A stretch of DNA of 50,119 nt, from the IMG/VR virus record IMGVR_UViG_3300044729_004416, positions 1 through 50,119 of that record. The stretch is one strand, 5' to 3'. Below are positions 10,330 to 38,307 of this stretch, piece after piece. The DNA comes from a virus. Every line of letters starts with the position of its first letter. Position 1 is the stretch's first letter. The notes below the pieces were generated by a model. That model ran no database searches. It had not been told where the DNA came from and saw nothing but the letters and a program-made list of their open reading frames with translations. Made by a program: the position numbers and the translations under genes.

Positions 10330-13300
10330 ATGAGCCCTCCCACCATCTACGAGCTCTGCCGGCCCCGGGCCGACGTGCTGGAAGGGCGGATCCGCGATGA
10401 AGACTTTGCAGCGGACCTCAGCCAGGTGCTGAAGGGCACGGCACCGGAGCTCTACAAGAACCCGGCCCTGTTCTTCGCGAACACCCATCCCACCAGGGGC
10501 TTGCGCGACCTGTTCCTGGCGGTGGTGGACCGGCTCACCAGCGCCGGCAGCCAGCTGGGCAGCATCCTGCGGCTCGACACCAGCTACGGCGGCGGCAAGA
10601 CGCACGCCTTGATCGGCCTGAACCACATCCTGACGGCCGCCGACCAGATCCCCAACCTGGCGGAGTTCATCGACCCAGCCCGGCTGCCCAGTCAGAAGGT
10701 CACGGTGGCGGCCTTCGACGGGGAGAACGCCGACCCGATGAACGGCCGGCGCATGGAGGGCAACGTGCTGGCCTTCACTCCCTGGGGGGAGCTGGCGGTG
10801 CAGCTGGCCGGCCCAGCGGGCTACGAGCGCATCCGCAATAGCGACCGGCTTGGAGCAGCTCCTCCTGGGGCGGAAACCCTGCGGGAGCTGATTGGCGAGC
10901 GGCCGGTGCTGATCCTGATCGATGAGCTCTCGATCTATCTGCGCAAGATCAAGGGCCCCGCTGCCGGTCAGGCGGCTGAGCAGCTCACTCCCTTCCTCAC
11001 CGATCTGATCAAGGCGGTGAACTCCTCCCCCCAGGCGGTGCTGGTGTTCACCCTGGCCCTGGGCAAGGGCGGGCAGTCGGTGGACGCCTATGGAGAGGAA
11101 AACCAGCGAATCGATCGGATTTTTGCCGAACTGCAGTCGGTTACGGGCCGGCAGATCACGGCCCTCACGCCCACCAGCGAAGACGAAACGGTGCAGGTGC
11201 TGACCCGGCGTCTGTTCGAGTCGATCGACCGCAGCCGGGTGGAGGAGGTGGTGCAGGCCTACCAGGAGATCTGGAGCCGTACCGCCGAGGCCCTGCCGCC
11301 TGTGGGGCAGAGCGATGACAGGGCTGCCAATTTGCGCAAGGGGTATCCGCTGCATCCGGAGTTGATCGACACCCTGATGCAGAAGACCTCGACTCTGGAG
11401 AACTTCCAGCGGGTGCGGGGCATGTTGCGGCTGCTGGCGCAGACCGTTGGCCAGCTCTGGCGCGACCAGCCAAGGGGTGTCACGGCTGTCCATCTCCACC
11501 ACGTGGATCCAGGCAACGAGCGGATTCGGCTGGAGCTCTCCACCAAGTTGGGCCTGCAGGCCTTCATCCCGGCGATCCGAGCGGATGTGTCCTCCACGTC
11601 TGCCGAGGGAGGAACGGCCCTGGCCCAGAGGCTGGATGCCCAGGAGTTCTCGGGGATGGAGCCCTATGGATCCATGGCCGCGCGCACGGTGCTGTTCCAC
11701 TCCCTGGCGTTCAACGAACCGCTGAAGGGCCTCAGCCGCCTGGAGCTGAACTACAGCCTCTACGCCCCGGCTGTGGACCCAGCCTTTGTCGACAAGGCGG
11801 TGCGCCTTCTGCAGGAAGAATCGGAGTATCTCGACGACAGCGGCACCAGCAAGCTGCGCTTCCTCACCGACGCCAACCTCAACCAAATGGTGAGGAAGCG
11901 CGAGGGGCAGTTTGATCTCGAGTCAGTGCGAGAGGAGCTGAACCGACGCATCGGCACGATCTTCGCCAAGCAGCGGCTGGAGCCTGTGCTGTTCCCATCC
12001 AGCCCGGCGGACATTCCCGACGACACCGATGGCCCTTACTTGGCGGTGATCCACTGGGAAGGCCACACCGTGGAGCAGGCGAACATCCACCTGCCGGAGC
12101 TGGTGGTGCGGCTGTTCAAGGAGAAGGGCGACAACGCCAATGTGCGCCTGAACCGCAACAACCTCGTGTTCGTCTGCGCCGATGCCCTGCAGGTGGACGA
12201 CATGCTGCGCAAGGCCCGCACCTACCTGGCGCTGCAGCAGATGCAGCAGGGTGATCTGTTCGCCAGCCTGCAATCCCACCAGCAAGACCAGGTGAAGGAG
12301 CGCTATGGCCAGGCGCAGCAGGGATTCGCGCTGGCGGTGCAGCAGTGCTACCGGCACGTGTTCTATCCCGAGCGGGGACAGTGGCCCGAGGTGCCCCTCA
12401 CCCATGCCGCCATCACGGTCACCAGCGCCAGCAGTGAGCCGGGCGTGGGTCAGAAGCAGGTGGAGCGGGTGCTGCGGGAAGCCCGGGAGCTGGTGTTGGC
12501 GGAAGATGCGCCGCCGGCCCCGAACTACATGGCCGACAAGACACCGCTCAAGCGTGTGGGGGTGATGAGCACGCGGGATCTGCGCAACGAGTACTACCGC
12601 GATCCATCCCTACCGATCCTGCTGGGGGATGAGGTGCTCAAGAAGTGCCTGCGGATGGGGCTGGATCAGGGCCTGTTCGTCTACAAGGAAGGTGATCGCC
12701 TCGAAGGCCAGGGCCTGCCACCAGGCACGCTCTCGATCAGCGAGGACGGCAAGATCTACACGATGGAGAAGGCGCTGGAGTTGAGCGTCTGGCCGCCGAA
12801 AACTGCAGCTCCAGCTGGAGAGGCTGGTGTGGATCAGCCATCCGTGTTCGGCGGTGACGGTGGGGCCACTCCGATGGGCGCAGGGGGAGAGACGGGATCC
12901 ACTGTTCAGGTGGGATTTGGCTCCACCAGCCCCGGCAGTGGCGGCGGAGCGGGCGTTGCACCACCCCCAGCCCCTGGGTTGATCGAGCGCACCGACAATG
13001 TGAAGACAGCCCTCACCCAGCTGGCCCAGCAGGTGAGCAGCTCGGGCAAGGCGATTAAGAGCCTCACCTGGCGGATGAACAGTGGCGACGGCTTCCTGCC
13101 GATGGCCCTCCTCAAGGCCGAGCCTGGCGCCACCGTGCGGGTCGAAATGATGGAGGGCGGCTGGAGCAGCGGCGATGGCAGCGCCGAGTGGAGCTTCGAC
13201 TTCAACGGCACGCCCGAGGAGGCCAGCCATCTTCGGGGCTTCATTGAGGGCCAGTGGCGGCGAGGCGGTGAGAAGTCACTCGACATCACCTATCAGCTCC

Positions 13301-13416
13301 GCTACGAGCCACCCTTGCGCTGGGATGACGGCGGCGAGGGCTGGATCGCTCGCCTCACCCGGGCTGGTCTCAGCGCCCAGACCGCCACGATCCGCCTGGA
13401 GTTGATCGACGCATGA
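10330..13416 (+). CDS. DUF499 family AAA+-type ATPase
   Basis: A 1028-residue ATPase of the DUF499 family (COG1483), which travels with DUF1156 methylases and helicases in restriction-like defence loci. The Walker A motif is TSYGGGKTHALIG (K90, T91) and Walker B is VLILIDEL (D198, E199). The glycine-rich P-loop form is typical of the family. The middle is helical with a repeated charged pattern. Residues 820-885 form a Gly/Ser/Pro linker. The last ~150 residues make a beta-rich domain (SLTWRMNSGDGFLP, WSFDFNGTPEEA) that may contact the partner proteins. It is the first gene of the operon and overlaps the next by four bases (ATGA). The biochemical role is inferred to be ATP-driven loading or sensing. 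Confidence 0.85.
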   Translation: MSPPTIYELCRPRADVLEGRIRDEDFAADLSQVLKGTAPELYKNPALFFANTHPTRGLRDLFLAVVDRLTSAGSQLGSILRLDTSYGGGKTHALIGLNHILTAADQIPNLAEFIDPARLPSQKVTVAAFDGENADPMNGRRMEGNVLAFTPWGELAVQLAGPAGYERIRNSDRLGAAPPGAETLRELIGERPVLILIDELSIYLRKIKGPAAGQAAEQLTPFLTDLIKAVNSSPQAVLVFTLALGKGGQSVDAYGEENQRIDRIFAELQSVTGRQITALTPTSEDETVQVLTRRLFESIDRSRVEEVVQAYQEIWSRTAEALPPVGQSDDRAANLRKGYPLHPELIDTLMQKTSTLENFQRVRGMLRLLAQTVGQLWRDQPRGVTAVHLHHVDPGNERIRLELSTKLGLQAFIPAIRADVSSTSAEGGTALAQRLDAQEFSGMEPYGSMAARTVLFHSLAFNEPLKGLSRLELNYSLYAPAVDPAFVDKAVRLLQEESEYLDDSGTSKLRFLTDANLNQMVRKREGQFDLESVREELNRRIGTIFAKQRLEPVLFPSSPADIPDDTDGPYLAVIHWEGHTVEQANIHLPELVVRLFKEKGDNANVRLNRNNLVFVCADALQVDDMLRKARTYLALQQMQQGDLFASLQSHQQDQVKERYGQAQQGFALAVQQCYRHVFYPERGQWPEVPLTHAAITVTSASSEPGVGQKQVERVLREARELVLAEDAPPAPNYMADKTPLKRVGVMSTRDLRNEYYRDPSLPILLGDEVLKKCLRMGLDQGLFVYKEGDRLEGQGLPPGTLSISEDGKIYTMEKALELSVWPPKTAAPAGEAGVDQPSVFGGDGGATPMGAGGETGSTVQVGFGSTSPGSGGGAGVAPPPAPGLIERTDNVKTALTQLAQQVSSSGKAIKSLTWRMNSGDGFLPMALLKAEPGATVRVEMMEGGWSSGDGSAEWSFDFNGTPEEASHLRGFIEGQWRRGGEKSLDITYQLRYEPPLRWDDGGEGWIARLTRAGLSAQTATIRLELIDA

Positions 13417-13865
13417 CCCAGGCCGTCGCCTCAGGCCGCCCGGCCTACGAATTGCGCAGCAAGCAGCGCGGCCCCAGTGATCTGGAGCTGGAGGTGTGGC
13501 AGGTGCCTAGCACCGCTACACCTGAGCTGAAGGAACCCCGACGAGTGGCCGGCCTGGGCGGCCACAAGCTGCTTCTAGTCGAGGGGGCCGTGCTGCGGCG
13601 CCTCAAGGCCGAGAAAGTAAGCCTGGCCAAGCTCAAGAAGGGGGAAGCCCGACGGGATCCTCTCTCAGAGGACCTAGCCCTGGTGATGGGGCTGCTGTTC
13701 AAGCTGCTGGCCCCGATGCGCAACGTGCCCGCGATCGAGAACTGTGCCCGCGGCATCGATGCCATGGCCCGTGAGGAGGCGGCCTACTGGCTGGGGATGG
13801 CGATGCACCGCAAAAACCCGCGCCGGGTGCTGGCAGCTCTTCGTCTTCTGCTCTCTGCGAACTGA
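13413..13865 (+). CDS. Small partner protein of the DUF499/DUF1156 locus
   Basis: A 150-residue basic protein between the ATPase and the methylase. Its start overlaps the ATPase stop (ATGA), so the two are translationally coupled. The N-terminal half is beta-rich (PSDLELEVWQVP, VAGLGGHKLLLVEG). The C-terminal half is helical (EDLALVMGLLFKLLAP, NCARGIDAMAREEAAYWLG, RVLAALRLLL). Similar small genes occupy this slot in related loci, but I cannot name the family with confidence. A structural or adaptor role in a complex with the ATPase is an inference from coupling. The stop lies inside a four-unit GAACT repeat. Confidence 0.75.
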   Translation: MTQAVASGRPAYELRSKQRGPSDLELEVWQVPSTATPELKEPRRVAGLGGHKLLLVEGAVLRRLKAEKVSLAKLKKGEARRDPLSEDLALVMGLLFKLLAPMRNVPAIENCARGIDAMAREEAAYWLGMAMHRKNPRRVLAALRLLLSAN

Positions 13866-13878
13866 ACTGAACTGAACT
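13859..13878 (+). repeat. (GAACT)4 tandem repeat before the methylase start
   Basis: Four perfect five-base units begin inside the last codons of the small partner gene and fill the spacer to one base before the methylase ATG at 13880. The unit junctions put TGA at 13863, 13868 and 13873, that is, one stop in each frame. No Shine-Dalgarno is present. A change in unit number would alter the stop-to-start distance. Confidence 0.8.
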
Positions 13879-13879
13879 C

Positions 13880-16876
13880 ATGACCAAACGCCTGATCGAA
13901 GAGTGGCTGCCGATCGCAGAGCTGGGCATTGAGAGTGTCCGCGAGCGGACGCCAATGACGCCCTTCCCGGCACCGAACAGACTGCATGTGTGGTGGGCCA
14001 GGCGGCCTCTGGTGGCATCTCGGGCGGCAGTGCTGGCGTCGCTTCTGCCTGCCGATGCCGATCGCAAGACCTTCATGCACATGCTCGGCATCCATGGGGA
14101 TCCTGTGGGCTCCCGCAAGCGCATCGACGCAGCCAAACGCAAAGGTGAACGCTTTGAGGGAGAGGCCTATACATATAAGCGAGCCTTCATGTATAAGCCA
14201 AATGAACAGGAGGAATTCTGGCTGTTGGATCAGATCCAGAAATTAGGTATCGGTAAACCTGCAATACTCGATCCAACAGCAGGGGGCGGGGCCATCCCCT
14301 TTGAGGCAATGAGACTGGGTTGCACCTCATTCGCCAATGACATCAATCCAGTTGCTGTGTTGGTGCAGAAGGCCACTTATGAGTGGCCCGCCAAGTTTGG
14401 CCCCGCAGTGCTTGAGCAGTTCAAGCGGCTTTCTGATGAGTTCGTAAATCGGCGAGAGAAGCGACTGGCGAACTACTACCCCGCAGAACCAGAACCGAAT
14501 TGCATCCCCACCAATTACCTCTGGGCTCGCACCATCCACTGTCCCTACTGCGCCGGCAAAGTACCTCTGTCTCCAAACTGGAAGCTGGCGCCCGATGGCA
14601 CCGGCGTGAAAGTGGTGCCGCAGCTGGGCGAGGGCCCGGGCGAAGCCGGCCGTCACTGCATCTTTGAGATCGTGGGCAGTGCTCGCGAGCAGAGCAATGG
14701 CACTATGAAGGGTGGCGATGCCACTTGTCCCTACCCCGACTGCGGCCGTGTGATCGACGGTGACCGGGTAAAAGCCCAGGCCCAGGCCGACGGAATGGGC
14801 GAGCAGCTGTTCGCGGTGGTTTTCAAGCGCAAGCTCCCCACCGAGTACACCAAAACAGGTAAATCCAAAAAAGCTAAATGGGAGCGGGGCTACCGTGCCC
14901 CTCGCCCGGAGGACAACAGCATTGCCGCGATCGAAGCTGCCTTGGCAGAAAAGATGCCGGAATGGGAGGCACTGGATATGGTGCCGAATGAATTGTTGCC
15001 GATGGATACCGAGTCATGGACGCATGGCAATACTCCAGCGCAGTACGACGCCACCAACTTCCTCGCGTTGTTCTCGCCTCGCCAACTTCTCTGCCATGGA
15101 ACCAGCGTGGAGATCTTCCGCGAACTCGTGAAGGAAGAAACTGCTCGAACTGGTGGCCTAAGTGACCTCGAAAGAGCGGCATTAGGCTATGTAGCGATAG
15201 CAATTGATACCTTGCTCAACTACAACTCAAGATCTTGCAGATGGGATTCAACAATCTTGCGAGTTCGCTCCGTCTTTGATAGGCACGACTTTGCCTTCAA
15301 GGTATCTTATGCCGAGGTGCCTGCAATTGTTTCGGGTGTTGGTTACGACTGGGCTTTTGAAAAGACCAGTCGCTGCATTTCTGAGCTTATCGAGTTAATC
15401 GCCCCAGGCAGTGCCGCATCCACTAGCGCAGGCCCTTTGTTCGCCGTAGGCCCTAAGGCAATGGCCCCGCCCCAGCAGTCGCCAGCGGTAATCAGCTGTG
15501 GCTCTGGCGATTCCCTCGCCCACCTGGAGGCCGGCTCGGTGGATGCAGTGGTGATGGACCCTCCGTACTACGACAACGTGATGTACGCGGAGCTGAGTGA
15601 CTTCTTCTATGTCTGGCTCAAGCGCACCGCTGGCCTGCTCTACCCCGAGCTGTTCATGGCTCCGCTCACTGATAAAGACAACGAAGCCGTCGCCAATCCT
15701 GCCCGCCATGAGGGTAAGAAGGGCGCTAAGGCTCTCGCTGGTCTGGACTATCAGCAGAAGATGGCTGAGATTTTTGCGGAGTGTCGCCGCGTTCTCAAGG
15801 ACGACGGAGTGATGACATTGATGTTCACCCACAAGGCCACGGGGGCCTGGGATGCGCTCACCAAAGGCCTCATCGATGCGGGCTTCGCGATCACCGCTTC
15901 CTGGCCGATCAACACCGAGGCCGAGGGCTCCCTCCACATCAAAGACAAGTCGGCCGCCAACAGCACGATCTTTCTTGTCTGCCGTCCGCGTCCTGAGCTG
16001 AAACCACAAGACGGCGTGCAGTACTGGGAAGACCTCGAACCCCGCGTGAAGGCTGCAGTGCGCCAGCGCATCGAGCAGTTCCAGGCCGGTGGCATCCGGG
16101 GTGTGGACCTCTACCTCTCCTGTTTCGGCCCGGCACTGGAGGAATTCTCTCTGCATTGGCCGATCAAGCGCGGCCAACCCCGGCCGATCGAGGAGCGCAC
16201 CAAGAAACGCGGTCGGGCCCAGCTCACGCTGGAAGAACTGCTGGCCAACGATGATCCTTATGCCGTGAGCCCAGAAGACGCGCTCGATGCCGCCCGCCGC
16301 GAAGTGAAGGCCTGGCGCATGGAGAAGCTCACTTCCGGCTCTCGCCGGGCCCAGCTCGATCCACTCACGGAGTGGTTTGTGCTCGCTTGGGATGCCTTCG
16401 AAGCTCCGCAGTTCCCTTTCGATGAAGCGTTGCGGCTGGCTCGTGTCGTCGGGCTCGACCTCGACAAGGACGTAGTGGGAGTACTGGCTGAGAAAAAGGC
16501 AAGCGATCTGATCATCTGGGACAGTTCCACCCGCGCCACCAAGGGGAAGCTCGGCGCCCCCGATGGCACCAAATCCTGGATCGATGCCATCCACCACTGC
16601 GCCCACCGTGCCCGCAGCATCGACCTCAACGCCGCCAAGCAGCTGCTCGATGACAACGGCCTGGCCAACAGCCCCGTCTTCCTCACCGCCCTGGAGGCCG
16701 TGCTGGAAGTGCTGCCCCTCTCCGCCCGCTACACCGGCTTCGATCCGGTGAAGGCTGCCGCGCCGGCCGCGTCGGACTTCGAAGCCCTGGAGAACCTGCG
16801 CCGCCTTGCCCTCGCAGAACAGGTGCCCGCGCCCAAGCAGCTGGAGTTGGTGTTGGCGGAGCTGGCTGAGGCATAG
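13880..16876 (+). CDS. DUF1156 N6-adenine DNA methyltransferase with Zn ribbon
   Basis: A 998-residue methylase of the DUF1156 family (COG1743). The N-terminus (RLIEEWLPIAELGIESVRER, then RLHVWWARRPLVASRAA) is diagnostic. The S-adenosylmethionine motif ILDPTAGGGAIPFEA is at about 129-143, and the catalytic DPPY is at 560-563. A zinc ribbon has CPYC at 221-224 and a second cysteine pair at 283 and 288. The large insert between the two catalytic motifs probably carries target recognition. It should mark self DNA so that the helicase/ATPase partners act on unmodified DNA. Two AT-richer patches (about 14155-14360 and 15130-15420) interrupt the high-GC gene. It is six bases from the helicase start. 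Confidence 0.9.
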   Translation: MTKRLIEEWLPIAELGIESVRERTPMTPFPAPNRLHVWWARRPLVASRAAVLASLLPADADRKTFMHMLGIHGDPVGSRKRIDAAKRKGERFEGEAYTYKRAFMYKPNEQEEFWLLDQIQKLGIGKPAILDPTAGGGAIPFEAMRLGCTSFANDINPVAVLVQKATYEWPAKFGPAVLEQFKRLSDEFVNRREKRLANYYPAEPEPNCIPTNYLWARTIHCPYCAGKVPLSPNWKLAPDGTGVKVVPQLGEGPGEAGRHCIFEIVGSAREQSNGTMKGGDATCPYPDCGRVIDGDRVKAQAQADGMGEQLFAVVFKRKLPTEYTKTGKSKKAKWERGYRAPRPEDNSIAAIEAALAEKMPEWEALDMVPNELLPMDTESWTHGNTPAQYDATNFLALFSPRQLLCHGTSVEIFRELVKEETARTGGLSDLERAALGYVAIAIDTLLNYNSRSCRWDSTILRVRSVFDRHDFAFKVSYAEVPAIVSGVGYDWAFEKTSRCISELIELIAPGSAASTSAGPLFAVGPKAMAPPQQSPAVISCGSGDSLAHLEAGSVDAVVMDPPYYDNVMYAELSDFFYVWLKRTAGLLYPELFMAPLTDKDNEAVANPARHEGKKGAKALAGLDYQQKMAEIFAECRRVLKDDGVMTLMFTHKATGAWDALTKGLIDAGFAITASWPINTEAEGSLHIKDKSAANSTIFLVCRPRPELKPQDGVQYWEDLEPRVKAAVRQRIEQFQAGGIRGVDLYLSCFGPALEEFSLHWPIKRGQPRPIEERTKKRGRAQLTLEELLANDDPYAVSPEDALDAARREVKAWRMEKLTSGSRRAQLDPLTEWFVLAWDAFEAPQFPFDEALRLARVVGLDLDKDVVGVLAEKKASDLIIWDSSTRATKGKLGAPDGTKSWIDAIHHCAHRARSIDLNAAKQLLDDNGLANSPVFLTALEAVLEVLPLSARYTGFDPVKAAAPAASDFEALENLRRLALAEQVPAPKQLELVLAELAEA

Positions 16877-16882
16877 GCAGCC

Positions 16883-19800
16883 ATGGCAGGCCTCGCCGAT
16901 CACGCCTGGAAGGGGCGCTTCAGCAGCTCGATCGAGAGCCTGTTGGAGGGGTTCTACAGGCCGGCCCTAATGGATGCCACCCGCTACTGGCGCATCACCG
17001 GCTACTTCACCAGTCGTTCCCTGCTCCAGGTGCTGGAGGGGGTGGAACAGCTGGTGGCGGCCTCACCCGATGGGATCGGGCATGGACAGATGCGCTTGAT
17101 CACAGGTGTGTTCCTCAGTGAGGCCGACATCGCCGCCCTGGCGGCTGGAACTCCTACTGAAACCGTTCTCAGCGATCACCTTTCGACCCAGTTCCCCTTC
17201 AAGGGTGTCGAGCCAGGCGGCCAGGGAGCCGCAGCCCTCGGGGCCGAGCTTCTTGCCTGGCTGGTGGGCCGTGGGCACCTTGAGATCCGCGTGGGGCTGC
17301 CCCTCATCGACGGGTTGATCGTCAACGACGGCGCGATCTTCCATGCCAAGGAAGGTGTGATCGAAGACAATCACGGCCAGCGGTTGGGCTTCAGCGGCAG
17401 CGTCAACGAAACGCCCAACGGCTGGACCAGCAACTTCGAAACCATCCAGACCTTCTGCTCCTGGAAGCCTGGTGGCGCCGAAGCCATCGATGATCTGGAG
17501 GCTGGCTTCCTGCGGCTCTGGGAAAACCAAGACTCCGGCGCCCGCACCCTCACCTTGCCCGAGGCAATCCGCCAGCAGCTGGCCATCTACGCCCCGGCCG
17601 AGGGGGTCCTGCCTCGTCGCCTCCAACCCTTCCTCAAGGATCTGCCCGCACCGGAGCCAGACCCCGTCGTTGAGATCGTCCCCGACCTCGATGAACGGCG
17701 CCGCATCGTGTGGAGCTACGTGCTCCAGGCCGCGGCCAGCGATCTGCCCGGGGCCGAACGGGTTGGGGAAGGCACCAGTGCGGTGACCCCCTGGCCCCAT
17801 CAGCAGCGGGCCTTCCAGCGCCTCTGGCAGCAGTGGCCGCCCAGGCTGCTGATCGCCGACGAGGTGGGCCTCGGCAAAACGGTGCAGGCCGGCTTGCTGC
17901 TGCGCCAGGCCTGGTTGAGCGGCCGCGCCCGCCGCATGCTGGTAATGGCACCCGCGTCGGTGCTCAAGCAGTGGCAGCGGGAACTGCGCGAGAAGTTTGG
18001 CCTTGACTGGCCCATCTACAGCGGCAAGTCACTCGACTGGCAGCCCACCCGCTTCCGCCCAGCTGGGCTCTCCCGGCCCGTGGACCGGAGCAGCTGGACC
18101 GCAGAGCCCTTTGTGCTGGTCTCCAGCCACCTGATGCGACGGCGCGACCGCCACAAGGATCTGCTGGAAGCCGAGCCCTATGACCTGGTGGTGCTCGATG
18201 AAGCCCACCACGCCCGCACCCGTCGGGAGAACAGCAGCAGCGGCGGTGAGCGCCTCCGCCCCAACACCCTGATGCTGCTCATGCAGCAGCTGCGCCAGCG
18301 CACCAACGGCCTGCTGCTGCTCACCGCCACACCGATGCAGGTGAGTGAGCTTGAGGTGTGGGATCTGCTCGCCCTGCTGGGCATGCCCCCTGAGTGGACC
18401 GAAGACGCCTTCGAGCGCTTCTTCGAGTGGGTGGAGAAGGAAAACCCGGATGAGGCCACCCTGTCGTACCTGGCTGGGTTGTGGCGCAGCAGCGTGTCGG
18501 CCTTTGGTGAGGCACCGGGCAATGCCATGCCGGAGGATCTGCGGAAGTCGCCGCTGCGCAAACGCAAGGCTCTGCGGGCCCTCAACGACACCGACCCCCT
18601 CTCCCGCCGCAATCTCGGCATCGAGATCCGTCAGGCCTCACTGGCCCTGGCCAAACGCTGGACCCCGGTGCAGGGTCTGATCTCCCGCCACAGCCGCAAC
18701 CTGCTGCGGGCCTACAAGCAGCAGGGATCGATGGATCTGGCCATCGGCACCCGCCACGTGGACGACCGCTTCCTGGAAAGTACCCCCGATGAGCGGGCGC
18801 TGTATGACGCGGTGGAGGACTTCATTTCCACCCAGTACGCCCAGGCATCTGGCCAGAAGAAATCGGCGGTGGGCTTCGTGATGACGATCTACCGCCGCCG
18901 GCTGGCCAGCAGCGTGGCGGCATTGGTCTCCACTCTGGAAAAACGGATGGCCGGCCAGCAGCAACAGCTGGAGGAAGACGCCGCCGCCAGCGAAGACGAC
19001 GACATCACCGGCGAGCTCACCCTCGATCTGGAGGGCATGCAGAGCGCCTTCCAGGAGGCCTCGCTCCAGGGCGAACTCGATGCCATCGCCGTACTGCTGG
19101 ATCAGGCCCGCCCACTGGTGGGCCACGACAGCAAAGGGACGGCGTTCCTTGAGGCCATTGATGAACTCCAGGTCCAGGACTACAAGCAGGTGATCGTCTT
19201 CTCCCAGTACACCGACACCGTCGATGCCCTCAAGGCGCTGCTGATCGGTGCCGGGCGCACCAGCCTGATGACCTTCACTGGTCGCGGTGGCGAGATCCTG
19301 CAGAAGGGCGGGGTATGGAAGGCCCTGAACCGCGAGGCCACCAAACGGGGCTTCAAGGAAGGCAAGGCCGAGATCCTGCTCTGTACCGATGCGGCAGCCG
19401 AAGGCCTGAACTTCCAATTCTGCGGCGCCTTGATCAACTACGACATGCCCTGGAACCCGATGCGAGTGGAGCAGCGCATTGGCCGCATCGACCGCATCGG
19501 CCAGACCCACGAGCAGATGGAGATCATCAACCTGCATCTCGATGGCACCGTGGAAGCCGATGTGTACCGGGCGCTGAAAGGCCGGATCGCGATGTTCGAG
19601 CAGGTGGTGGGCAAGCTGCAGCCGATCCTGGCCAAGGCATCAAGCTCGATCACTCAGGCCACCCTCGTCAGCCGTGACCAGCGAGAGAAGGCCCGGGCGT
19701 CTGCCGTGGCGGCTGTGGAGCAGGAGCCCGAGATCAAGGGTCTGGACCTTGATGACGTCCTCCAGGACCTCGATGCCATCCGCGATGTAGTGAACACCCT

Positions 19801-20095
19801 GCAGCCCTCTCCGCTCACTCTGGCCGATCTGGAAGGCATCCTCAGGCAACCGGCGCTGCTGCCACCCGGTTGCAGTGCCCGCTCGATCGGCGCCTATGAC
19901 TTCGCCTGGACCCAGCCTGGTCTCGACAAGGAAATGCGCGTCACCTGCAACGCCTCCTACTACGAAGACAACAGCGATAGCTGTGAGCTATGGGTGCCTG
20001 GGAGTCCGCTGTTTCCGATGGAGGGGTGCCAAGCTCTTGCGAACACAAATACCCCTCAACGAACAACCTTTGAGGATGCAGTTAAAGCCCTTTAA
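16883..20095 (+). CDS. SNF2-type helicase with N-terminal phospholipase D-like domain
   Basis: A 1070-residue protein. Residues 1-200 form a PLD-like domain with IFHAKEG (H154, K156) and GFSGSVNETPNGW further on, the half-site pattern of PLD nucleases fused to helicases. The superfamily 2 motor follows: Walker A ADEVGLGKTVQAG (K332), DEAH at 439-442, LLLLTATPMQ, and the arginine-finger block RIGRIDRIGQTHEQ near 865. It should translocate on double-stranded DNA and may nick it. It overlaps no gene but sits seven bases from the methylase stop, so both are in one operon. The architecture matches helicases found with DUF1156/DUF499 in bacterial and archaeal defence loci. Confidence 0.9.
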   Translation: MAGLADHAWKGRFSSSIESLLEGFYRPALMDATRYWRITGYFTSRSLLQVLEGVEQLVAASPDGIGHGQMRLITGVFLSEADIAALAAGTPTETVLSDHLSTQFPFKGVEPGGQGAAALGAELLAWLVGRGHLEIRVGLPLIDGLIVNDGAIFHAKEGVIEDNHGQRLGFSGSVNETPNGWTSNFETIQTFCSWKPGGAEAIDDLEAGFLRLWENQDSGARTLTLPEAIRQQLAIYAPAEGVLPRRLQPFLKDLPAPEPDPVVEIVPDLDERRRIVWSYVLQAAASDLPGAERVGEGTSAVTPWPHQQRAFQRLWQQWPPRLLIADEVGLGKTVQAGLLLRQAWLSGRARRMLVMAPASVLKQWQRELREKFGLDWPIYSGKSLDWQPTRFRPAGLSRPVDRSSWTAEPFVLVSSHLMRRRDRHKDLLEAEPYDLVVLDEAHHARTRRENSSSGGERLRPNTLMLLMQQLRQRTNGLLLLTATPMQVSELEVWDLLALLGMPPEWTEDAFERFFEWVEKENPDEATLSYLAGLWRSSVSAFGEAPGNAMPEDLRKSPLRKRKALRALNDTDPLSRRNLGIEIRQASLALAKRWTPVQGLISRHSRNLLRAYKQQGSMDLAIGTRHVDDRFLESTPDERALYDAVEDFISTQYAQASGQKKSAVGFVMTIYRRRLASSVAALVSTLEKRMAGQQQQLEEDAAASEDDDITGELTLDLEGMQSAFQEASLQGELDAIAVLLDQARPLVGHDSKGTAFLEAIDELQVQDYKQVIVFSQYTDTVDALKALLIGAGRTSLMTFTGRGGEILQKGGVWKALNREATKRGFKEGKAEILLCTDAAAEGLNFQFCGALINYDMPWNPMRVEQRIGRIDRIGQTHEQMEIINLHLDGTVEADVYRALKGRIAMFEQVVGKLQPILAKASSSITQATLVSRDQREKARASAVAAVEQEPEIKGLDLDDVLQDLDAIRDVVNTLQPSPLTLADLEGILRQPALLPPGCSARSIGAYDFAWTQPGLDKEMRVTCNASYYEDNSDSCELWVPGSPLFPMEGCQALANTNTPQRTTFEDAVKAL

Positions 20096-20115: not shown

Positions 20116-20970
20116 ATGCTGTATCGATTTCAGGAGTGTCTTAGTCGGATGAGGAGCAGCCAACCGCCCTCCGGCGTCATTCTTTATCGAGGAATGACCA
20201 AATCCAAGACTGAGCATGACCTCACCGAGAATAGACTGCACTTTTCAAGAGCGATCATTCACGACAACGACACTCAGGAAAGCGAGATGTTTAAGACAAG
20301 GGAGGAGCAGAAGCGGGAACTTGAGCAACTAGGACTTGGAGGCGAAAACCTGATACACGAAGACCAGCGGAGCAAGGAGTTCTTTGAGCGCGCCGATAAG
20401 CTCTACAGCGGGTTGTCTTACATTTGTAGTTGGTCACATTCTAGATCGGCGGCGCTTGAGTTTGCTCAACCATTGCATGATCGAGTCCTTCTCCAGATTT
20501 CTGAAGGCGATTTGGTCAAGTGTCTTCAGGAATGCTTTTATCGATGGAACCGACAGCAGCCCGGTGAGCATGAGATGACACACTCTGTTGGCAGCTTTCG
20601 CGATGACTGGAATCCTCGGGCTGTGAGGTTCGCATATGGGAAGATTGACTATCCCGATCCTTCTGACTGCAGTTCAAGCTCCCCATTTCGCCTAGGCCGG
20701 GCGATGAGACTCCCCGGAGGTCCCGACGACGGAGATCTCCAGGAAGAAGATGAATGGAGAATCTCTCTTGACCTCTCTGAGGTTTCCTCGTCGATCTATA
20801 CAGAACGGCTAGTCAAAACCGGCCTGCTTCCCAAAGCTTTGGGTGATATCACTGCATCAACTGGGGCTGATGAGCTTGAGCCCATGATTTCCTTTAATGG
20901 CAGTCACGGTTTATGGCTGAATGATCTTCAGCTTCTGGAGGCAAATAGCTTCCGTCTTGAAGTTCTGTGA
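20116..20970 (+). CDS. Uncharacterised cargo protein, weak ADP-ribosyltransferase-like pattern
   Basis: A 284-residue protein that I cannot assign firmly. VILYRGMTKSK near residue 21 and YICSWSHSRSAALEFAQP near residue 97 recall the R and STS motifs of ADP-ribosyltransferases or the start of FRG-type domains. A possible acidic motif EEDEWRISLDL lies near residue 211, and GRAMRLPGGPDDGD precedes it. The order and spacing are suggestive only. It starts 20 bases after the helicase gene, and the base composition falls to clearly lower GC from here on. It could be an effector of the kinase/phosphatase group or of the helicase system. Confidence 0.65.
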   Translation: MLYRFQECLSRMRSSQPPSGVILYRGMTKSKTEHDLTENRLHFSRAIIHDNDTQESEMFKTREEQKRELEQLGLGGENLIHEDQRSKEFFERADKLYSGLSYICSWSHSRSAALEFAQPLHDRVLLQISEGDLVKCLQECFYRWNRQQPGEHEMTHSVGSFRDDWNPRAVRFAYGKIDYPDPSDCSSSSPFRLGRAMRLPGGPDDGDLQEEDEWRISLDLSEVSSSIYTERLVKTGLLPKALGDITASTGADELEPMISFNGSHGLWLNDLQLLEANSFRLEVL

Positions 20971-21032: not shown

Positions 21033-22265
21033 ATGCTGGGAATGATCCTATCTGCATCCAGAGAGATAACACCAGTGCAGGCCAAGCCAAGTCCAGCTAA
21101 GATCCCAAGGTACGTTGGCTTACACGAGGTGGCTCCTACCGGCACCTTCCAAGAAGATGTCCGGAAGGCCGTCCTCCGCTGGCTTCATCGTGGAAAGAAT
21201 ACAGGTTTTTCATCTGTAGAAGAAGGATCAGTTACTTTCGTCAGTGCTATAGGTAAGAGAGATGAAAATCAGGATAGGACCGTCTTCCTTCGGTTGATAC
21301 CTCAGCGGGAGGGATGGCCTATGACAACAGCCCTAGTCCTTTGTGACGGCATGGGTGGCATGAGGGAAGGTGCTACATCCGCAGAGTTGGCAGTTAGCTC
21401 CTTTGTTGCCGCGTTCTCCGCCTCAAAGTCAGACTCTCTGGTTGATCAACTTCGCAACGCAACCGAAGCCGCTAACGAAGAAGTCTTTAGGCATTTCTCT
21501 GGCAGAGGAGGCGCGACCTTATCCGCGGTTGGATCCACCAGCAATGGCGACTGGGCGTGTGTAAATGTTGGTGATAGTAGGATTTATGGATTTTTAAAGA
21601 GTGGAGAAATCAAACAGATCTCTACAGACGATAGCCTGGGAAATATTCTATCTGGAATGGAGGTTCAAACTCCGCCGTCTCAGTTTAGGGAATTGCTTCA
21701 GTATGTAGGGATGGGCAAAGGGATCCAGGTTCATGGCATCCCAGTATCCGACCCTGATCTGTATCACTGCCTATTTCTGACCTCTGATGGTGCCCATGAA
21801 ATCGACCAGCAGCTATTCAAAGAAATCGTTGTAAGTGCAGGCTCGTCCAGGGAAATCGCACGCAGGCTGACTGTTTTATCTGAATGGAAGGGAGGTAAAG
21901 ATAATGCAACTGTTGCCGCTTGGGACATCAGCCCTGGAGTGTCTTTGGGGTTTAGCCCAGCTGACAGGGGCTTTTTAGAGGTGTGGGGTATTTCAGGCAA
22001 GTTCGAAATTACGTCAAGACAAGAGGCTAGGTCTGCAATGTTTCGAGGCAAGGAACCAGAGCCTAATCGACCACGGCGTCGTAAGCCTCCTACTGCTAGA
22101 AAGGCTGGAGCGATCGTGGAAACAGCGCAATCAAACCAAGGAAGCGAGAGCCTACAGGCCATCCATGAGGCATCCCAGGATGCCAGCAGTGAAAATCGAT
22201 CTGTAGATGCCGTGATCAAGGATCTTCATGAGCCACAACTACGAATAGAGCTTTCGGAGACATAG
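21033..22265 (+). CDS. PP2C-type Ser/Thr protein phosphatase
   Basis: A 410-residue metal-dependent phosphatase. Motifs in order: RDENQD (76-81), VLCDGMGGM (102-110), RGGATLSAV (158-166), VNVGDSRIYG (177-186), LTSDGAHE (249-256) and GGKDNATV (287-294), so all metal-binding acidic residues are in place. About 60 residues precede the domain and 110 follow; the tail includes a basic run (RPRRRKPPTARKAG) and then an acidic end. AAGGA lies seven bases before the ATG. It should remove phosphate from Ser/Thr targets of the two kinases encoded next, which start eight bases after its stop. Confidence 0.9.
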   Translation: MLGMILSASREITPVQAKPSPAKIPRYVGLHEVAPTGTFQEDVRKAVLRWLHRGKNTGFSSVEEGSVTFVSAIGKRDENQDRTVFLRLIPQREGWPMTTALVLCDGMGGMREGATSAELAVSSFVAAFSASKSDSLVDQLRNATEAANEEVFRHFSGRGGATLSAVGSTSNGDWACVNVGDSRIYGFLKSGEIKQISTDDSLGNILSGMEVQTPPSQFRELLQYVGMGKGIQVHGIPVSDPDLYHCLFLTSDGAHEIDQQLFKEIVVSAGSSREIARRLTVLSEWKGGKDNATVAAWDISPGVSLGFSPADRGFLEVWGISGKFEITSRQEARSAMFRGKEPEPNRPRRRKPPTARKAGAIVETAQSNQGSESLQAIHEASQDASSENRSVDAVIKDLHEPQLRIELSET

Positions 22266-22273
22266 TCCTCCTC

Positions 22274-23341
22274 ATGATCCCCTCTATACCTGATCGCTAC
22301 CAGCCCACGGGCGAAGTTTTACACGGAGGCATGAGTGATATCTATATATGTAACGATATTCTCCTCGAGCGCACAGTTGTTGTCAAGTCTATCGGCGATC
22401 CGAGTCAGCTACATCGGGTCGTAGATGAAATTAAAGCTCTGCAGAAGCTAAGGTCTAAGCATGTTGTTCAGATCTATGACTACTTCGTAGACTCAGAAAC
22501 CCAGCAGATATGTATTGTTGAGGAGTATGTTGCAGGGCCGGGCCTCCAGGACTTTCCTCCAGCAGGATCATCCTTGTCTGTCAATGAATACCTTCTTATT
22601 CTCTACCAGGTGGCATCAGGCTTATCCGACCTTCACGACCAAGGGATTATTCATCGAGACATCAAGCCTGACAACATCAAACGCGATGACGGGGGACTCG
22701 TTAAACTCATTGATTTTGGACTGGCACGATTTGCCGGAATCAATGATAGAACAGTTGGATTTTCTGGCACTCTTGTCTATGCAGCCCCTGAGCTGGTTAA
22801 AGATCAGCCTGTAGGATTTACAAGCGCAATTGACGTGTATGCCTTTGGAATCCTTGCCTGGCATCTTTCTGGGCAGGGCATACCACGTGAACTCGCGTTG
22901 ATTCCACCACTACTTGATAATACTACTAGCTTCGCTTCGCTGACTCTTGATCTTCCTGATACTTTGGTGGATCTTCTAAATCTTACGACACGACTAAACC
23001 CAGCTGAAAGGCCTAGAATCTCAGAGATTGCTCAGGTGCTACAAGCGGAGTTGCTCAGGAATAAACATAAGGGCATGCTTGTTAGCGGGAACAATATCTT
23101 TGTTATGAGCTCCGAGAAGCCTGGGGCCCTTCTGCAGATAGATAGTACGTTGTCCATTACAATCAGATACACTGGACTGGCCTTTAGAGTTGCAGCATTA
23201 GAGGGTGTTGTGGCGATTAATAACTGCCGAGCTCGGGTGAGTGATGTCTTGCCGAAAAGTTGTGTCATCACCCTAGGAGATGTAGGGCAAAGACGCATAT
23301 TTGCAACATTTGACATCTCAAATCCCGAGGTAGTCCTATGA
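22274..23341 (+). CDS. Ser/Thr protein kinase with C-terminal beta-rich extension
   Basis: A 355-residue Hanks-type kinase. The glycine loop is VLHGGMSDIYI (one Gly fewer than usual), the ATP lysine is K38 in VVVKSI, the helix C glutamate is E52, HRDIKPDN starts at 127, DFG is at 147-149 and the activation segment ends in AAPE at 170-173. No membrane segment is present, so it is cytosolic. The last ~90 residues (from about 265) are beta-rich, and NNCRARVSDVLPKSCVITLGD has a faint resemblance to the end of an FHA domain. Its stop overlaps the next kinase start (ATGA), so the pair is coupled. Confidence 0.9.
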   Translation: MIPSIPDRYQPTGEVLHGGMSDIYICNDILLERTVVVKSIGDPSQLHRVVDEIKALQKLRSKHVVQIYDYFVDSETQQICIVEEYVAGPGLQDFPPAGSSLSVNEYLLILYQVASGLSDLHDQGIIHRDIKPDNIKRDDGGLVKLIDFGLARFAGINDRTVGFSGTLVYAAPELVKDQPVGFTSAIDVYAFGILAWHLSGQGIPRELALIPPLLDNTTSFASLTLDLPDTLVDLLNLTTRLNPAERPRISEIAQVLQAELLRNKHKGMLVSGNNIFVMSSEKPGALLQIDSTLSITIRYTGLAFRVAALEGVVAINNCRARVSDVLPKSCVITLGDVGQRRIFATFDISNPEVVL

Positions 23342-24417
23342 GTGGAGACCAAATCCATGTTCAGGGTGATGAGATCAATTCGCGCTACATAGTTCATTCA
23401 TTTGCAGGCGAAGGAGGCATGCAGGAGGTCTATCTTGCACGCGATTCGCACTTGCAAAAGGAGGTGGCCCTTAAAGTTCCCAAAAATAGGTCTGCTCAGA
23501 AGCGTTTTCAGAGAAGTGCCGTTGTCAGCGCAAAAGTCAATCATCCTAATGTTGCCAAAACACTTGATTACATCGAAGTCAATGGCTCTCAGTATCTTGT
23601 AGAGGAGTTTATCGCTGGCACGGATATAAAACAGGGCCTGCTGGATCGTCTGGCCGCTGTTGACCCAGCACTTGTAGCGAAAGCGATGCACCACACAGCC
23701 AAAGGCCTCGATGCATCGCATAGGGCTGGAGTTATTCACCGCGATTTGAAGCCCAGCAACGTAATGTTCACGGGTGGGGCGGGCATCAGAGAAATTAAAA
23801 TTACAGATTTTGGCATCGCCAAAATGGCTGGTGACGAAATCGCGGAAGCTGTCGAGGGTGGTGAGGCATCAATCTCTGCATCAAAGACTGTTGTAGGAGC
23901 ACTCCCCTATATGGCTCCAGAAATGATTACCGATCCTCGCAATGCCGACAAGCCTTCCGATGTATGGGCTATTGGCGCAATGACCTATGAGCTTTTGGTG
24001 GGCGAACCTCCGTTTGGAGTTGGATTGACCGCCGTGCCAAGAATCCTTCAAGCTGAGCTACCAGTTCCGTCTGTCGCGTTTACTGGCAAAACGCAGTTCA
24101 AGACATTAGCTGATGAAGTCCATCAGCTTGTCATCGCATGCCTCAGTAAGGACCCAGCTGCCAGGCCGTCAGCAAAGCAATTAGCAATTCGGTGCGAAGC
24201 TCTCTGTTACTCGGTTGACGAAAGACTTGAGGGCACCTGCTCAGCCATTAGACCTCCTGGAAACACTGGTTTTATCAGCCAGGACGGTGGAGGCGTTGTC
24301 TTTTTTCACCGGCACAGTGTGTATGGACCAATGCCATCAGAGGGTGACCGAGTCAGTTTTTCGTGCTTCCCAGGTTTTCCCTATCCTCGCGCTCATCCAG
24401 TCGTGATTACCAAGTAG
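23338..24417 (+). CDS. Ser/Thr protein kinase fused to a cold-shock-like domain
   Basis: A 359-residue kinase with GEGGMQEVYLA as glycine loop, K46 in VALKVPK, HRDLKPSN at 134-141, DFG at 157-159 and MAPE at 192-195. It therefore looks fully active. Residues 298-359 form a separate small domain: GTCSAIRPPGNTGFISQDGG, VVFFHRHS and EGDRVSF follow the cold-shock domain pattern (strand 1, RNP1-like GFI, RNP2-like VFFH, then GDxVxF). Such OB folds bind single-stranded DNA or RNA. The kinase may thus sense or be placed on single-stranded nucleic acid. It ends the cargo operon. Confidence 0.88.
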   Translation: MSGDQIHVQGDEINSRYIVHSFAGEGGMQEVYLARDSHLQKEVALKVPKNRSAQKRFQRSAVVSAKVNHPNVAKTLDYIEVNGSQYLVEEFIAGTDIKQGLLDRLAAVDPALVAKAMHHTAKGLDASHRAGVIHRDLKPSNVMFTGGAGIREIKITDFGIAKMAGDEIAEAVEGGEASISASKTVVGALPYMAPEMITDPRNADKPSDVWAIGAMTYELLVGEPPFGVGLTAVPRILQAELPVPSVAFTGKTQFKTLADEVHQLVIACLSKDPAARPSAKQLAIRCEALCYSVDERLEGTCSAIRPPGNTGFISQDGGGVVFFHRHSVYGPMPSEGDRVSFSCFPGFPYPRAHPVVITK

Positions 24418-37536: not shown

Positions 37537-38307
37537 CTATAAGCGAACAATTCCGAGTGGATCAGTTGAACTGGCCACTTTGCACAGGACTGAATCAAGA
37601 CGGTCGATGTAGTTTTTCGCCCCTTTTTTCTTGACGTACGCATTTGGGGCGAGTTTTTGGTAAAGAAAATAGGCATTTACGTCGCTTAGCTGGATGAGAT
37701 ATGAGTGCAGCGAGTTGCGATGTACTGCATCTTCGACCAATGTAGTAAGTGGAAGATTGCGATATCCCAGCCCACCCCTATTGGATATTGGATTGTAAGC
37801 ACTCATTTTTCGCGTAAGCAGACGTAATTTTCTCTCGTCGGTCTCGTCTACAAAAAGCAAACCCCTGTCTTGTGGGTTCTGAGGACCTGGGAAATTTCGA
37901 TGTGACAATGTATTGTGAAATCTCTGGATTAGCGCGCGCCATGCATGTTCAAAGACATCATAGTCATTCCGCTTGCCAGCCTTGTCAACAACAACGTTGA
38001 TTATGCTTAGGTCACTAAATGAATTTTGGAAGTCTATGACATCTCTTAGAATGCGTAGTCGCATTGACTTTGGTATTCTAGCTAGATCACCAGGCTTGTT
38101 AAGGAAGTGACTCGCGTGAATCTCTTCCCTAAGTTTCAATCCATATGTTTTTCGCAGGTGACGTCTGAACTGAAGAATATCTTCAATAAAGTCATGCCAG
38201 CGAAGCTCATGCAAAACCAGGCCGCTTAAGGCAAAAAAGCTACTGGATCCCCGCTCGCGGCCAATGTCTCCACTTTCATCGACATAGAGAAGAAACACAG
38301 ACAGCAA
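37537..38307 (-). CDS. DUF3800 family protein
   Basis: A 256-residue protein with the family signature LLYVDESGDIG near the N-terminus, then EIHASHFLNKP, IINVVVDKAGKRNDYDVFEH and LLFVDETDERKLR, giving conserved acidic residues that suggest a metal-dependent RNase H-like fold. Function is unproven; members are frequent in phages and defence islands. The start is read as TTG; a GTG three codons on is an alternative. The gene is clearly AT-richer than the packaging genes beside it and lies between terminase/sigma and portal, so it is likely accessory cargo. Confidence 0.85.
   Translation of the reverse strand: MLSVFLLYVDESGDIGRERGSSSFFALSGLVLHELRWHDFIEDILQFRRHLRKTYGLKLREEIHASHFLNKPGDLARIPKSMRLRILRDVIDFQNSFSDLSIINVVVDKAGKRNDYDVFEHAWRALIQRFHNTLSHRNFPGPQNPQDRGLLFVDETDERKLRLLTRKMSAYNPISNRGGLGYRNLPLTTLVEDAVHRNSLHSYLIQLSDVNAYFLYQKLAPNAYVKKKGAKNYIDRLDSVLCKVASSTDPLGIVRL

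Follow-up and report, generated by a model that had tools for sequence, protein, structure and literature searches.

A phage-borne Ser/Thr kinase with a C-terminal cold-shock domain, probable PfkA of a kinase-kinase-phosphatase module

The open reading frame at positions 23338-24417 of the window (the whole stretch analysed, 50,119 nucleotides of IMG/VR virus record IMGVR_UViG_3300044729_004416) encodes a Ser/Thr kinase with a C-terminal cold-shock domain (CSD), and very probably represents PfkA in a prophage-borne KKP (kinase-kinase-phosphatase) module; the prophage is probably cyanobacterial. The gene order, domain make-up, fold of the CSD, conservation of its motifs and prophage setting were all observed directly. 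That the kinase belongs to a known three-gene system was overlooked in the initial annotation. The KKP system itself has been known since 2024, and the copy in the window is a divergent addition to it.

The three-gene module

Published KKP systems consist of a phosphatase, PfpC, a kinase with an FHA domain, PfkB, and a kinase with a CSD that carries a GFI/A motif, PfkA (Guo et al. 2024, PMC11341870). More than 1200 clusters, mostly prophage-borne, are recorded from Proteobacteria and also from Cyanobacteria and Bacteroidetes, and the modules of four other prophages were found to be protective (PMC11341870). The corresponding features of the window are as follows.

21033-22265, + strand: PfpC-like PP2C phosphatase, 410 aa, the KKP antitoxin by analogy (Pfam PP2C_2, PF13672, E=1.1e-5)
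22274-23341, + strand: PfkB-like Ser/Thr kinase of 355 aa whose C-terminal domain is beta-rich (Pfam Pkinase, E=1.7e-37)
23033-23338, + strand: C-terminal domain of PfkB, a candidate for a divergent FHA-like beta sandwich (model and weak fold matches)
23338-23341, + strand: ATGA shared by the PfkB stop and the PfkA start (in 21 of 22 KKP loci)
23338-24417, + strand: PfkA-like Ser/Thr kinase with a C-terminal cold-shock domain, 359 aa, 1080 bp
23338-24186, + strand: kinase domain of PfkA, residues 1-283 (Pfam Pkinase at residues 20-282)
24220-24414, + strand: cold-shock (OB-fold) domain of PfkA, residues 295-359 (profile E=2.5e-9; AlphaFold2 model and Foldseek)
24268-24276, + strand: GFI motif, RNP1 remnant, residues 311-313, equivalent to CspB G16-F17-I18 (conservation in relatives)
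24298-24309, + strand: VFFH motif, RNP2 remnant, residues 321-324, equivalent to CspB V26-F27-V28-H29 (conservation in relatives)

The genes for the PP2C phosphatase and the two kinases follow one another on one strand (21033-24417), in the published order and with lengths of 1233, 1068 and 1080 bp that fall within the published filter of 900-1300 bp. Together they provide one PF13672 phosphatase and two PF00069 kinases. The match of the PfpC-like protein to PF13672 exceeds the curated cut-off, and its metal and catalytic motifs QDR, DGMGG, DG and GGKDN are conserved with other KKP phosphatases. As judged from alignments, GGM, HRD and DFG motifs are found in both kinases. They are intact in PfkB, whose Pkinase match is also above the curated cut-off, and the same holds for the match of PfkA (E=2.4e-46 over residues 20-282), in which the kinase domain is complete with intact GEGGM, HRDLKPSN, DFG and APE motifs. 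In PHROGs, both kinases are placed in generic Ser/Thr kinase families.

A phage major head protein, portal and terminase are encoded nearby, and the window is itself a virus record, which gives the module a mobile or prophage location. The GC content of the triplet (0.47-0.51, versus 0.647 for the window) is consistent with horizontal acquisition, and the overlap of the PfkB stop with the PfkA start suggests translational coupling. Promoter and terminator scans returned no more sites than in shuffled sequence.

The triplet shares its gene order, gene sizes, PP2C phosphatase with two PF00069 kinases and prophage site with the KKP of the Pf6 prophage of Pseudomonas aeruginosa MPAO1, and in both the last kinase bears a CSD with the GFI motif. 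Unlike the Pf6 system, the window copy belongs to another host lineage, adjoins an Hma-like operon and has a PfkB tail that Pfam does not recognise as FHA. A recognisable FHA domain on PfkB is the only one of the published sequence criteria (PMC11341870) in which it departs from KKP.

The kinase domain of PfkA is also matched by the PADLOC profiles for mad6 and PD-T4-6, which raises the alternative that it is unrelated to KKP and belongs to a different defence system (MADS MAD6, PD-T4-6 or BREX PglW). However, those two matches cover the generic kinase domain only, NCBIfam MAD6 (NF047741) scored 126 bits where the cut-off is 460, PglW scored 84 where it is 990, and none of the genes next to PfkA could be recognised as a further component of MADS or BREX. 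Hence this alternative was rejected as highly improbable. Stk2 of Staphylococcus is likewise a Ser/Thr kinase in phage defence, but it is a single host-encoded kinase that works alone, without a kinase-kinase-phosphatase module (PMC11341870).

Folds of the two kinase tails

The PfkA tail, C-terminal to the kinase domain, is about 65 residues long. The initial annotation had read this gene as a Ser/Thr kinase with a C-terminal cold-shock domain and had quoted the tail motifs GTCSAIRPPGNTGFIS, VVFFHRHS and EGDRVSF. All three are present in the translation, and the reading agrees with Pfam, the tail profile and the AlphaFold2 model. As a single sequence, the tail matches Pfam CSD at E=0.013, a weak score under the Pfam cut-off, and phmmer against the PDB gives E=0.015, with CspB accounting for most matches. 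The single-sequence match is weak, yet it is not due to chance and becomes firm when relatives are added: 14 of 19 homologous PfkA tails individually match Pfam CSD (best 3.9e-7), and a profile of the 19-member tail alignment finds solved CSDs in the PDB, among them Unr (E=2.5e-9) and CspB (E=9.3e-8). Pfam S1-like was also considered for the tail and scored weaker than CSD.

AlphaFold2 models the tail with five strands at a pLDDT of 91.6. All 35 Foldseek matches of this model in the PDB at E<=0.001 are CSDs, with TM-scores of about 0.7-0.85. A fold other than an OB barrel had been named at the outset as the result that would speak against the assignment; the predicted structure is an OB barrel. 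The PfkA tail is a genuine cold-shock-type fold, which is a published hallmark of the PfkA family.

The model of the PfkB tail (pLDDT 92.4) has eight strands, and its top matches among PDB folds are mostly FHA domains, though weak ones (best E=0.083; TM-score up to 0.64, with Rad53). Sequence-profile searches with the tail found nothing, and Pfam FHA (PF00498) had no match in 17 PfkB relatives. The tail may be a divergent FHA-like beta sandwich. The FHA domain of published PfkB proteins, which here escapes detection by sequence and is only weakly recognised by predicted fold, counts against identification of the triplet as KKP.

Relatives, distribution and neighbouring genes

Several proteobacteria and one probable cyanobacterium carry this triplet too, in prophages, on plasmids or elsewhere in their genomes. 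Full-length relatives that retain both kinase tails come from P2-like phage or prophage records of Escherichia coli and Klebsiella, from plasmids of Rhizobium, Agrobacterium, Xanthobacter and Pantoea, from Massilia and from further genomes. Outside the near-copy in locus L003, PfkA shares only about 40-57% identity with any relative, a point against the KKP identification; the tail is kept in full-length relatives of 39-53% identity. Among 25 loci examined by script, PfkB adjoins PfkA in 22, where the two genes overlap by ATGA (21/22) or GTGA (1/22).

A scan of genome collections with a full-length PfkA alignment matched mostly generic kinases, and the CSD tail alone was therefore used as the query. 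PfkA-type tails are rare, being found in at least 1 of 386 genomes from the phylum of the cyanobacterial locus and at least 3 of 398 from that of the Pseudomonas locus; these counts are lower bounds, since a limited number of candidates was scored per genome. In the tree, the window groups (support 95/93) with the single relative that came from the search of the cyanobacterial genome's phylum. As this is its nearest neighbour, the host of the prophage is probably cyanobacterial.

In the Xanthobacter plasmid locus (L010, 6237-9684), the phosphatase gene is separated from the kinase genes by an IS5-family transposase, and the N-terminal glycine-loop region of PfkB is missing. In a Pseudomonas metagenome-assembled genome (L015, 8330-10071), PfkA is intact, and tblastn found the C-terminal part of PfkB only and no phosphatase, as would be predicted if cells could afford to lose the antitoxin only after a kinase is broken. 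Two loci (L007, 613-1778; L105, 3758-4920) have intact kinase genes and a phosphatase in two separate open reading frames, which may be a true lesion or an error of sequencing.

Directly upstream of the KKP region in the window is an Hma-like defence operon (10330-20095) encoding a DUF499 ATPase (PADLOC HmaC, 3.9e-102), a DUF7680 protein, a DUF1156 methylase (HmaB, 5.6e-69) and a helicase with PLD_Helicase as its best profile (2e-77). The helicase is likewise directly upstream of KKP in L003, the PfkA of which is 95% identical. Other defence genes adjoin KKP at L008 (11111-12559) and at L012 and L013 (11349-14905); they comprise a gene for a Shedu-domain protein (Rhizobium) and ABC-three-component genes (Rhizobium and Agrobacterium plasmids). 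Between the Hma-like operon and KKP in the window lies an open reading frame of 284 aa (20116-20970; GC 0.505) with no match in Pfam, PADLOC or NCBIfam. By eye, its YRG, SWSxSxxxAxxFA and EDEWRI segments call to mind the R-S-E motifs of ADP-ribosyltransferases, and a stretch 74% identical to it is present in L003. A further open reading frame (37537-38307, - strand), in a lower-GC stretch among phage genes, appears DUF3800-like by eye (YVDESGDIG) and has no NCBIfam match.

The cold-shock domain in the proposed mechanism

The surface of the CSD was compared with that of CspB by aligning 23 PfkA tails with CspB and CspA reference sequences, with which two further reference CSPs taken from a genome agree. 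Like CspA and CspB (PF00313), the PfkA domain is a five-strand OB fold with the RNP1 core (GFI) and the RNP2 core (VFFH). In the GFI motif, the glycine is present in 23/23 tails, the phenylalanine (CspB F17) in 22/23 and isoleucine or alanine in 23/23. The equivalent of F27 is kept in 23/23, and that of H29 is histidine in 17/23 and serine in 6/23. In CspB, F17 and F27 are exposed to solvent and engage in stacking, and a complete aromatic platform is a feature of nucleic-acid-binding Csp proteins and not of the cold-shock fold itself.

Most of that platform is reduced in the family. W8 and F38 are each found in 0/23 tails and K7 in 1/23, and the positions of F30 and F15 are aromatic in 7/23 and 12/23, respectively. 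The PfkA of the window, which differs from CspA and CspB also in being fused to a kinase, has A for W8, S for K7, T for F15, R for F30 and a gap for F38, where the loop is shortened. Of W8, F15, F17, F27, H29, F30 and F38, the equivalents of F17, F27 and H29 alone are kept, in line with the earlier remark that the aromatic residues are partly replaced. The PfkA tails also share a family-specific SVYG segment and contain an invariant arginine (residue 351). This pattern of conservation would permit weak or altered nucleic-acid contact and would equally permit protein docking.

In characterised members from other species, PfkA and PfkB are toxic only jointly and are neutralised by PfpC, and the one trigger to have been traced, that of an E. 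coli KKP, is the phage T4 protein Gp59, which binds the phosphatase and is a modest inhibitor of it (PMC11341870). The activity, trigger and substrates of the window copy can be proposed by analogy with these systems. The PP2C phosphatase would normally hold PfkB and PfkA dephosphorylated. Inhibition of the phosphatase by a phage protein would allow the kinases, functional only together, to phosphorylate each other and many host proteins, and both growth and production of the infecting phage would stop. The CSD would be an essential C-terminal module of PfkA, most likely docking to PfkB or to substrates, possibly with residual nucleic-acid contact.

For the CSD itself, reuse of the cold-shock fold as a protein-docking module, joining PfkA to PfkB or to substrates without binding nucleic acid, is favoured over nucleic-acid sensing, even if its own chances are about even. 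It is in keeping with the loss of most of the nucleic-acid platform, the family-specific SVYG segment and invariant arginine, and the overlap of the PfkB and PfkA genes that suggests coupled translation. Furthermore, published pulldowns and modelling indicate that PfkA and PfkB interact through their N- and C-terminal domains (PMC11341870). The near-invariant exposed F17 and F27 tell against docking, as they are what would be expected if base stacking were still under selection. Together with the true CSD fold and the retained RNP1 and RNP2 surface residues (F17 in 22/23, F27 in 23/23, H29 in 17/23), they fit a less likely but plausible reading, in which the CSD is a working ssDNA/RNA sensor or tether that would control kinase activity by recruiting PfkA to intermediates of phage replication or to translating RNA. 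The authors of PMC11341870 suggested ssDNA/RNA binding by the CSD as possible, and reported that, in published members, toxicity and defence depend on the domain and its GFI motif.

The GFI mutation does not settle the role of the CSD, however, because it may merely unfold the domain. Judging from the CspB structure, I18 would sit in the barrel core, and a mutation of GFI also strikes this residue, so that the loss of function may be simple unfolding. Sensing is further weakened by the loss, complete or nearly so, of W8, F38 and K7, by the aromatic F30 and F15 positions in only 7/23 and 12/23 tails, and by the traced KKP trigger, which acts on the phosphatase (PMC11341870). A two-input switch, in which phage ssDNA or RNA on the pared-down RNP surface licenses the joint kinases while the phosphatase is inhibited, is unlikely. 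The proposal of the initial annotation hence stands in part: a kinase is fused to an OB-fold CSD in a phage-defence setting, but contact with single-stranded nucleic acid coupling DNA entry or helicase products to phosphorylation is not supported, given the reduced platform and a traced trigger that hits the phosphatase. No paper testing nucleic-acid binding by PfkA was found in a literature that lacked most subscription journals and all preprints. As judged from conservation, F312, F322 and H324 are the residues that would tell binding from folding.

The cold-shock kinase is now placed in a characterised system of phage defence and prophage control, to which the window adds a prophage KKP copy, probably cyanobacterial, that lies beside an Hma-like defence operon.
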